Source: a virus. From it: a stretch of 22,337 nt of DNA. Each line of letters opens with the position of its first letter. The stretch's first letter is position 1. Positions 5,873 through 7,489 of this stretch are shown one piece after another. The position numbers and the translations under genes were made by a program. The stretch lies in IMG/VR virus record IMGVR_UViG_3300027733_000222, positions 1-22,337 of that record, one strand, 5' to 3'. A model generated the notes under the pieces. The model worked only from the letters and a program-made list of their open reading frames with translations, did no database searches and had not been told where the DNA came from.

Positions 5873-6064
5873 ATGAACAAATTACTTAAAGCATGGAACT
5901 ATATCCAAGCAAGATTAAAAGAACCTTCTACACACGCGAGTGTGGCAGCACTCGCTACGATGGCGGGTATGAATATTGATGCTGGTCCCGTGCATGATGG
6001 CTTGACTGCGGCTGGTATCGTGTTTGGTGTGATTGGATTATTTACATCAGAGTCTTCATCTTAA
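5873..6064 (+). CDS. Small holin-like membrane protein (63 aa)
   Basis: The 63-residue protein has a basic N-terminus (MNKLLKAWNYIQARLKEPST), a weakly hydrophobic Ala-rich stretch (HASVAALATMAGMNID) and a clear hydrophobic helix near the end (GLTAAGIVFGVIGLFT). The 'RLKEPSTHA...ALA...G' pattern is common in small proteins encoded just before endolysins in environmental phages. Position directly upstream of a peptidase lysin, length and one or two membrane segments support a holin or other inner-membrane lysis factor, but no named holin family is recognised. It starts one base after the fibre stop, with AAGG (5860 region) as a modest ribosome binding site. Confidence 0.5.
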   Translation: MNKLLKAWNYIQARLKEPSTHASVAALATMAGMNIDAGPVHDGLTAAGIVFGVIGLFTSESSS

Positions 6065-6207
6065 TAGTTGCGCTACAGGGGTGTAGTCTTACGCAATGTG
6101 ATATTACACCCACAGCAACATTGGCGTATAATGAAGCTAAATCAGAGCTTGGTTTAGGTAGTGAAGGGGTTAATTTAAAGTGTAAAATAGAGGAGTATTA
6201 TGATTGA
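6046..6207 (+). CDS. Hidden lipoprotein-like frame, possible outer-membrane lysis (o-spanin-like) subunit
   Basis: The frame is open from 5998 to TGA at 6205-6207, in the -1 register relative to the holin-like gene, and fills the apparent gap 6065-6199. Read from the ATC at 6046 it gives a short signal of the form (M)RVFILIVALQGC, then CSLTQCDITPTATLAYNEAK and a Glu/Lys/Tyr-rich end. LQGC is a lipobox, with Cys codon at 6082. The mature part would be 41 residues, near the size of lambda Rz1, though not proline-rich. No ATG, GTG or TTG is in frame between 5998 and the Cys; only ATT (6037, 6040), ATC or ATA could initiate, with a weak GGA at 6035. The start is therefore uncertain. The stop overlaps the next gene's start region by eight bases. 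It could be a real lysis lipoprotein with a rare start, a frameshift product, a sequence error, or chance. Confidence 0.4.
   Translation: MRVFILIVALQGCSLTQCDITPTATLAYNEAKSELGLGSEGVNLKCKIEEYYD
6190..6195 (+). promoter_or_regulatory. Shine-Dalgarno GAGGAG before the 69-residue gene
   Basis: GAGGAG lies four bases before the ATG at 6200. It is the strongest ribosome binding site in the lysis cassette, and it sits inside the hidden lipoprotein-like frame. Confidence 0.6.
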
Positions 6208-6409
6208 TTCAATAAGTGGGTTTTTTAAAAAAGTACTACGCTTCTTCTCAGCGCATACATCCGAACTTGCAGAAGCAGCCACGATTGCTGAAATTGCTAC
6301 GGGTAATGCCGAGCTTGTCCCTTTAACTCAAACTATCGCAAAAGCAACCCAAGCAAGCACTTCCATTCTTGATAAAATGACGGATACCTTAAATGACGAA
6401 ACTAAGTGA
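6200..6409 (+). CDS. Small lysis-cassette protein of unknown function (69 aa)
   Basis: The 69-residue protein begins MIDSISGFFKKVLRFFSAHT, an amphipathic basic/aromatic helix, followed by an Ala/Glu/Thr-rich helical stretch (ELAEAATIAEIATGNAEL) and a polar C-terminus. It has no true membrane segment and no signal peptide. The N-terminal helix could lie on the membrane surface. It overlaps the endolysin start by 17 bases and follows a strong ribosome binding site, so it is a real gene in the lysis operon. A holin accessory or antiholin role is possible from context only; I do not recognise the family. Confidence 0.55.
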   Translation: MIDSISGFFKKVLRFFSAHTSELAEAATIAEIATGNAELVPLTQTIAKATQASTSILDKMTDTLNDETK

Positions 6410-6755
6410 ACATTTTAGTGAAGAAGAATTCATGTGTCACTGCGGATGTGGCGAGAAGCACATCAATCCAAAACTCATTGAACTCTTAGAGCGCATTCGC
6501 ACAACTCTTGGAAGACCTATTAAAATTGTTAGTGGGCATCGCTGTGAGAAACACAACAAAGAGTGCGGCGGTAAAGAACATAGCCAGCACTTACTTGGCA
6601 ATGCAGCAGATATTCAAATAGAAGGTATGCTTCCTGTAGCAGTTCAAGAATATCTCATGAAGCATTATGACGATGACTGTAAAGGGTTAGGCCGCTATAA
6701 ATCATTTACCCATATTGATGTACGTGATGGTAAAATCGCACGCTGGAACGGATAA
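6393..6755 (+). CDS. Endolysin, M15-type D-Ala/peptide-cleaving metallopeptidase (120 aa)
   Basis: A compact 120-residue protein of the peptidase M15 (M15_3, VanY-like) type. FSEEEFMCHCGCGE near the N-terminus and IKIVSGHRCEKHN are standard for the family. HLLGNAADI (66-74) gives the zinc ligands His66 and Asp73, and FTHIDVR (105-111) gives the third ligand His107. Such enzymes cut peptide bonds in peptidoglycan cross-links or stems. There is no signal peptide or SAR segment, so release to the periplasm would need a holin, which fits the upstream 63-residue gene. An extra Cys set (15, 17, 19, 51, 58) may bind a second metal or stabilise the fold. The stop overlaps the next start by one base (TAATG). 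Confidence 0.88.
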   Translation: MTKLSEHFSEEEFMCHCGCGEKHINPKLIELLERIRTTLGRPIKIVSGHRCEKHNKECGGKEHSQHLLGNAADIQIEGMLPVAVQEYLMKHYDDDCKGLGRYKSFTHIDVRDGKIARWNG

Positions 6756-7489
6756 TGCAATCTAATATCGATAGCTTTGTATATTGTTGGACTGATAAAG
6801 CAACTAATAAACTTTATGTGGGCTTACATAAGGGAGCTATCGATGATGGTTATATTTGCTCATCTAAACACATGAAAAAAGAATATGCGGTTAGACCTTA
6901 TGATTTTACTAGACAAATAATATCAAACGGTACTTATGATGATTGCCGAATGTTTGAGAAAAAAGTAATACTTGCTATGTTTGCACAAGATGTACCTTGT
7001 TATAATTTGAATGCTGGCGGTGCGATTAAATTTACTCCTGAAATTCGAGCAAAGATAAGTGCTACACATAAAGGTAAAATCATATCTCAATCACATAGAG
7101 ATGCTATTCGAGCGTATAGTAAGATAAAGCCTCCAGCATCAGAAGAAACTAAAGAAAAGATACGCCAATCAAAATTAGGTGTTGTACGTAAACCTTTTAC
7201 TGAAGAAGCTAAACGTAATATGAGTATTGCTCGTACTGGTGTAAAAAGAGCACCTGAAGTAGGTACTGCAATTAGTTTACGACAGTTAGGTAAAAAAAGA
7301 AAAACGCCTTACCCAGAAGAAGCTAAAGAAAAAAATAGATTAGCTAGTACTGGTAAAAAACATTCTGAAGAAACAATAGCGCGATTAAAAGAAATTAAAG
7401 CTAATGTATCTCAAGAAACTCGTGATAAATTAAGCGCAGCTAAAAAAGCGTATTGGGACAAGAAGCGAGCTGAAAAACATGGTACTTAA
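6755..7489 (+). CDS. GIY-YIG homing endonuclease with NUMOD3 motifs (244 aa)
   Basis: The N-terminal ~90 residues are a GIY-YIG nuclease variant. VYC (9-11) and YVG (21-23) stand for the two name motifs, Glu68 in CRMFEKKV is the expected metal-binding Glu, and YNLNAGG (83-89) closes the domain. A canonical catalytic Arg is not obvious; the ICSSKHMKK segment occupies that area. Residues about 93-235 hold several NUMOD3-like DNA-binding units of the form SEETKEKIRQSKLG, TEEAKRNMSIARTG and SEETIARLKEIK. The gene is Lys-rich and looks more AT-rich than its neighbours. It overlaps the endolysin by one base and the tail gene at 7479 by 11 bases. It is probably a free-standing selfish endonuclease spreading between phages; activity is not certain. 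Confidence 0.85.
   Translation: MQSNIDSFVYCWTDKATNKLYVGLHKGAIDDGYICSSKHMKKEYAVRPYDFTRQIISNGTYDDCRMFEKKVILAMFAQDVPCYNLNAGGAIKFTPEIRAKISATHKGKIISQSHRDAIRAYSKIKPPASEETKEKIRQSKLGVVRKPFTEEAKRNMSIARTGVKRAPEVGTAISLRQLGKKRKTPYPEEAKEKNRLASTGKKHSEETIARLKEIKANVSQETRDKLSAAKKAYWDKKRAEKHGT

Follow-up and report, generated by a model that had tools for sequence, protein, structure and literature searches.

Does the space between a phage's holin-like gene and its endolysin gene encode a lipoprotein that lacks a standard start codon and, if so, how did it get there and what might it do? The locus lies in a window of 22,337 nt, the whole stretch of DNA that was analyzed, which stems from an uncultured phage, probably of freshwater origin. 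Its relevant features are:

5873 to 6064, plus strand: holin-like gene, 63 aa, with one C-terminal hydrophobic stretch (hydropathy) and relatives at 74 loci
5998 to 6207, plus strand: open lipoprotein frame including its TGA stop; its portion 5998 to 6051 is DNA of the holin gene in the -1 register
6046 to 6204, plus strand: likeliest lipoprotein coding extent, predicted for initiation at AUC 6046
6052 to 6388, plus strand: inserted module with respect to related phages, ~337 bp in place of a holin-endolysin spacer of ~10 nt
6200 to 6409, plus strand: 69-aa gene with a strong Shine-Dalgarno sequence (GAGGAG), overlapping the lipoprotein frame by 8 nt
6393 to 6755, plus strand: endolysin of the Peptidase_M15 family (Pfam PF08291, E=3e-24; phrog_894, E=6e-39)

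The M15-type endolysin shares ~47% identity with endolysins of SP6-like phages, and the holin-like gene weakly matches phrog_2374 (E=0.017). Neither Rfam families nor tRNAs were found.

The open frame in the -1 register is real and runs over 69 codons from 5998, directly after a TGA at 5995-5997, to the TGA at 6205-6207. The preliminary description had taken the apparent gap downstream of the holin-like gene to be fully open; the frame is indeed open, but it shares its initial 22 codons with the holin-like gene, and the true gap is 6065-6199. The lipobox (RVFILIVALQG/C), preceded by a basic residue and a hydrophobic run, was confirmed, as was a mature part of 41 residues beginning at the predicted Cys, residue 29. 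LQGC departs at position -2 from the strict consensus [LVI][ASTVI][GAS]C (PMC6139136), the residue at +2 is Ser rather than Asp, and the mature part carries two further Cys. As had been claimed, ATG, GTG and TTG are absent before the lipobox, and so is CTG; the near-cognate codons in frame are ATT 6037, ATT 6040, ATC 6046, ATC 6058 and ATA 6064. An AlphaFold model of the lipoprotein (pLDDT 52) was uninformative.

An open frame with a lipobox could arise by chance in a non-coding gap. The region 6067-6198 was therefore scored with a 3-periodic, order-2 model trained on the other genes of the phage. The lipoprotein frame reached +7.1 bits, compared to -40 and -77 for the other two frames of the same strand, while no reverse-strand frame exceeded -5.5. 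This score is reached by 93% of true-frame but only 1.5% of off-frame windows (83% and 1.2% when one gene at a time is left out). Among random sequences, just 2% stay open, and 1.25% of these open ones score as high. Open off-frame stretches within real genes do so in 14% of cases, so periodicity alone is not conclusive and, together with the lack of homologues (see below), leaves chance some room. In a 22-kb Markov window, however, a basic residue with hydrophobic run and lipobox should turn up 0.27 times across the six frames, or ~0.0008 times per 135 nt of one strand; the real window holds two such matches, and only the frame at 5998-6204 has a good lipobox. The remaining two forward frames also contain several stops. 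Chance is thus quite unlikely and, with periodicity and lipoprotein signal taken together, a true coding origin of the frame is highly probable.

How the frame came to lie here is revealed by related loci, which were collected from an endolysin scan (54 loci) and a holin-like protein scan (74 loci). In all ~70 related contigs with both holin and endolysin, the two genes directly adjoin (-4 to 11 nt apart), and these cassettes carry no lipoprotein gene; the only exceptions are the window itself, L001/L131 and, partly, L004. The blastn alignments of two close relatives, L006 and L007, stop at 6051 and restart at 6389, so ~337 bp were gained in the lineage of the window. The final three residues of the holin-like gene have been replaced and differ from those of the relatives. 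L001/L131, another contig, has the same arrangement: it is the same DNA as the window, without a mismatch over all 6516 bases compared, and holds the only other copy of the lipoprotein frame (100% identical). Comparison of the cassettes shows that the lipoprotein frame and the 69-aa gene arrived together as one module of ~337 bp between holin and endolysin.

The third exception, L004, represents a second lineage; it starts within the 69-aa gene and carries the end of the module. Its first 97 nt are identical to 6340-6436 of the window, and the following 319 nt contain 34 differences (11% divergence); the switch marks a recombination breakpoint within the endolysin gene. The pattern points to a recent recombination that would have moved the module between lineages, and after such a recent transfer missing stops tell little about selection. 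In L126-L130, the holin-like gene is cut short, at one of two points, and genes for two or three small transmembrane proteins come next, with an endolysin predicted from its sequence to be lysozyme-like downstream in L128/L129. These cassettes have changed in yet another way; the lysis cassette is thus a site of recombination.

The left joint of the module bears directly on the start codon. Homology with the holin of relatives extends to 6051, one codon past the best candidate start, ATC 6046, and novel sequence starts at GTC 6052. The basic residue of the signal peptide and the candidate starts are therefore out-of-frame holin DNA. The stretch WIIYIR that precedes the hydrophobic run is encoded by holin DNA shared with relatives that have no lipoprotein, among them L007, which is 84.6% identical to the frame in its residues 1-13. 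Initiation at ATC 6046, which is followed by AGA, would yield the 12-residue signal MRVFILIVALQG, short but otherwise typical, and then Cys and 40 residues with the two further Cys; ATT 6037 or 6040 would give signals of 15 or 14 residues. Shine-Dalgarno pairing is weak at every candidate start (-2.4 to -3.1 kcal/mol), compared to a median of -4.1 kcal/mol at the assumed starts of the phage and -2.2 at random positions. Natural infC starts are AUU in Escherichia coli and AUC in Streptomyces, and near-cognate start codons are repressed by IF3 (PMC5472188). Like infC, the frame would depend on a non-AUG start of the type AUN; what the sequence shows is the absence of ATG, GTG and TTG, and translation or IF3-dependent regulation as in infC is hypothetical here.

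Taken together, these data are best explained by a genuine lipoprotein coding sequence of recent import, with a start that is either near-cognate, with weak translation, or already lost; this reading has an even chance. An outer-membrane lipoprotein sequence would have recombined together with the 69-aa gene between holin and endolysin, its canonical start being lost in the left joint or absent from the outset. If the frame is translated, the likeliest start is AUC 6046 (or AUU 6037/6040), within the 3' end of the holin gene, and little protein would be made. Cut after LQG and acylated at the Cys, it would be, because Ser and not Asp occupies +2, sorted to the outer membrane. As an envelope lipoprotein of late infection, it might then aid outer-membrane disruption at lysis or block a receptor. 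In favor of this explanation count the periodicity outside the holin gene, a lipobox far above chance, an insert absent in relatives, the L001/L131 copy, the recombination trace in L004 and the AUU/AUC starts of infC. Against it count the lack of homologues, the weak Shine-Dalgarno pairing, IF3 repression, the off-frame figure of 14% and the recent transfer.

Two other accounts of the missing start have to be weighed against the imported coding sequence. It is conceivable, although short of probable, that the frame is a start-less relic: the ATG was lost on recombination, and the 69-aa gene is the only expressed cargo, with the frame as its leader. The joint falls exactly at the expected lipoprotein N-terminus, the 69-aa gene owns a strong ribosome-binding site (-8.6 kcal/mol), and the recent transfer implied by the identical stretch in L004 left little time for decay. 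Yet a complete basic-hydrophobic-lipobox signal is kept in register with several AUN codons, the frame has no stops, and no ATG-bearing donor was found that would prove the loss. A fusion of holin and lipoprotein, made by ribosomes that shift by -1 within the holin gene, is compatible with the register and with the overlap of 66 nt. It is very improbable, since 5998-6064 contains no X XXY YYZ slippery heptamer and RNA structure near the joint is not unusual (z = -0.19), and programmed frameshifting was rejected. The proposal that gene finders miss here, for want of a standard start, a lipoprotein coding sequence that is real, or was so until recently, is partly supported; the frame has about even odds of still being translated.

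Could similarity to known proteins reveal the function? The search of phage proteins and metagenomes suggested in the preliminary description retrieved the identical L001/L131 copy and no other homologue of the lipoprotein; none was found in phages, plasmids (tblastn), PHROGs, Pfam, IMG/VR or GTDB genomes. Three degenerate motif scans based on the lipoprotein, and one based on the 69-aa protein, gave no true new homologues. All searches for both proteins together returned only L001/L131, the L004 fragment and chance matches. A Qnr pentapeptide protein matched in the PDB (E=0.39) is due to chance as well. As no search found a homologue, the function of the lipoprotein has to be read from its anatomy.

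The preliminary description had expected a spanin lipoprotein at this position, a reading that finds no support. Like the o-spanins lambda Rz1, P2 LysC and T4 PseT.2, this is a small frame for an outer-membrane-type lipoprotein that overlaps a lysis-region gene and escapes gene callers, and the N-terminal signal and lipobox are present apart from the deviation at -2. Unlike in those systems, the frame overlaps the holin gene and not an i-spanin gene, lacks a standard start and has no detected sequence similarity to spanins in PHROGs, Pfam or phage genomes. No cognate i-spanin with an N-terminal transmembrane segment and a periplasmic domain is encoded next to it, and the 69-aa neighbor has no transmembrane segment (hydropathy peak 0.76). 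A unimolecular spanin finds no support either: the C-terminal half, GSEGVNLKCKIEEYYD, is polar and offers no C-terminal transmembrane segment. A two-component o-spanin whose i-spanin partner is encoded elsewhere would fit the site in the lysis cassette, the outer-membrane-type lipobox, the small mature part with extra Cys and the fact that o-spanin genes often go unannotated (196 of 528 systems; PMC6139136). It is nevertheless unlikely, given that no partner is adjacent and that a crude lipoprotein filter, applied to three long contigs of relatives, yielded no convincing candidate for a spanin lipoprotein. Because of the latter result, the phage group may be spanin-less, as are 91 of 677 phages (PMC6139136). 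Provided that the frame is translated, a spanin-like role is a reasonable possibility, albeit not the probable one.

As a rival equal to the spanin, the product could be a lipoprotein for superinfection exclusion, akin to Llp, Cor and Rtp45, and by analogy would block the phage's own outer-membrane receptor. Llp and Cor both contain an intramolecular disulphide, the Llp gene adjoins that of the receptor-binding protein, and Rtp45 has ~6 kDa (PMC9586334, PMC12685063). T5 Llp, Cor and Rtp45 share with the product of the frame its very small size, two extra Cys, here among ~41 mature residues, and a gene near the tail fibre; the frame lies one gene downstream of a tail-fibre gene with a Peptidase_S74 domain (Pfam). 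However, it sits within the lysis cassette, is shorter than Llp (61 residues) and has no sequence match to solved exclusion lipoproteins, which makes this role likewise unlikely. Doubtful, too, although a little less so, is the complete proposal of an outer-membrane lipoprotein acquired with the module, acting in lysis or exclusion, whose sole start is an AUC or AUU borrowed from the holin gene. If it is true, the dose of the lipoprotein would depend on how much holin is translated and on the fidelity of IF3.

If translated, the frame would be a lysis-region lipoprotein invisible to start-codon-based annotation, gained by phages of a group in which the lysis cassette is otherwise seen to consist of holin and endolysin only. 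If it is a relic, it illustrates how start codons can be lost when modules are exchanged within lysis cassettes. Both readings hold a modest lesson for annotation.

No homologue of the co-acquired 69-aa protein was found beyond L001/L131 and the L004 fragment. The protein is predicted to form a two-helix hairpin (pLDDT 75), for which a fold search gave no significant match. At the other end of the cassette, the relatives examined (L003, L008, L013, L036 and L007) lack, at this place, the NUMOD3-type homing endonuclease that in the window lies directly 3' of the endolysin gene (6755-7489).
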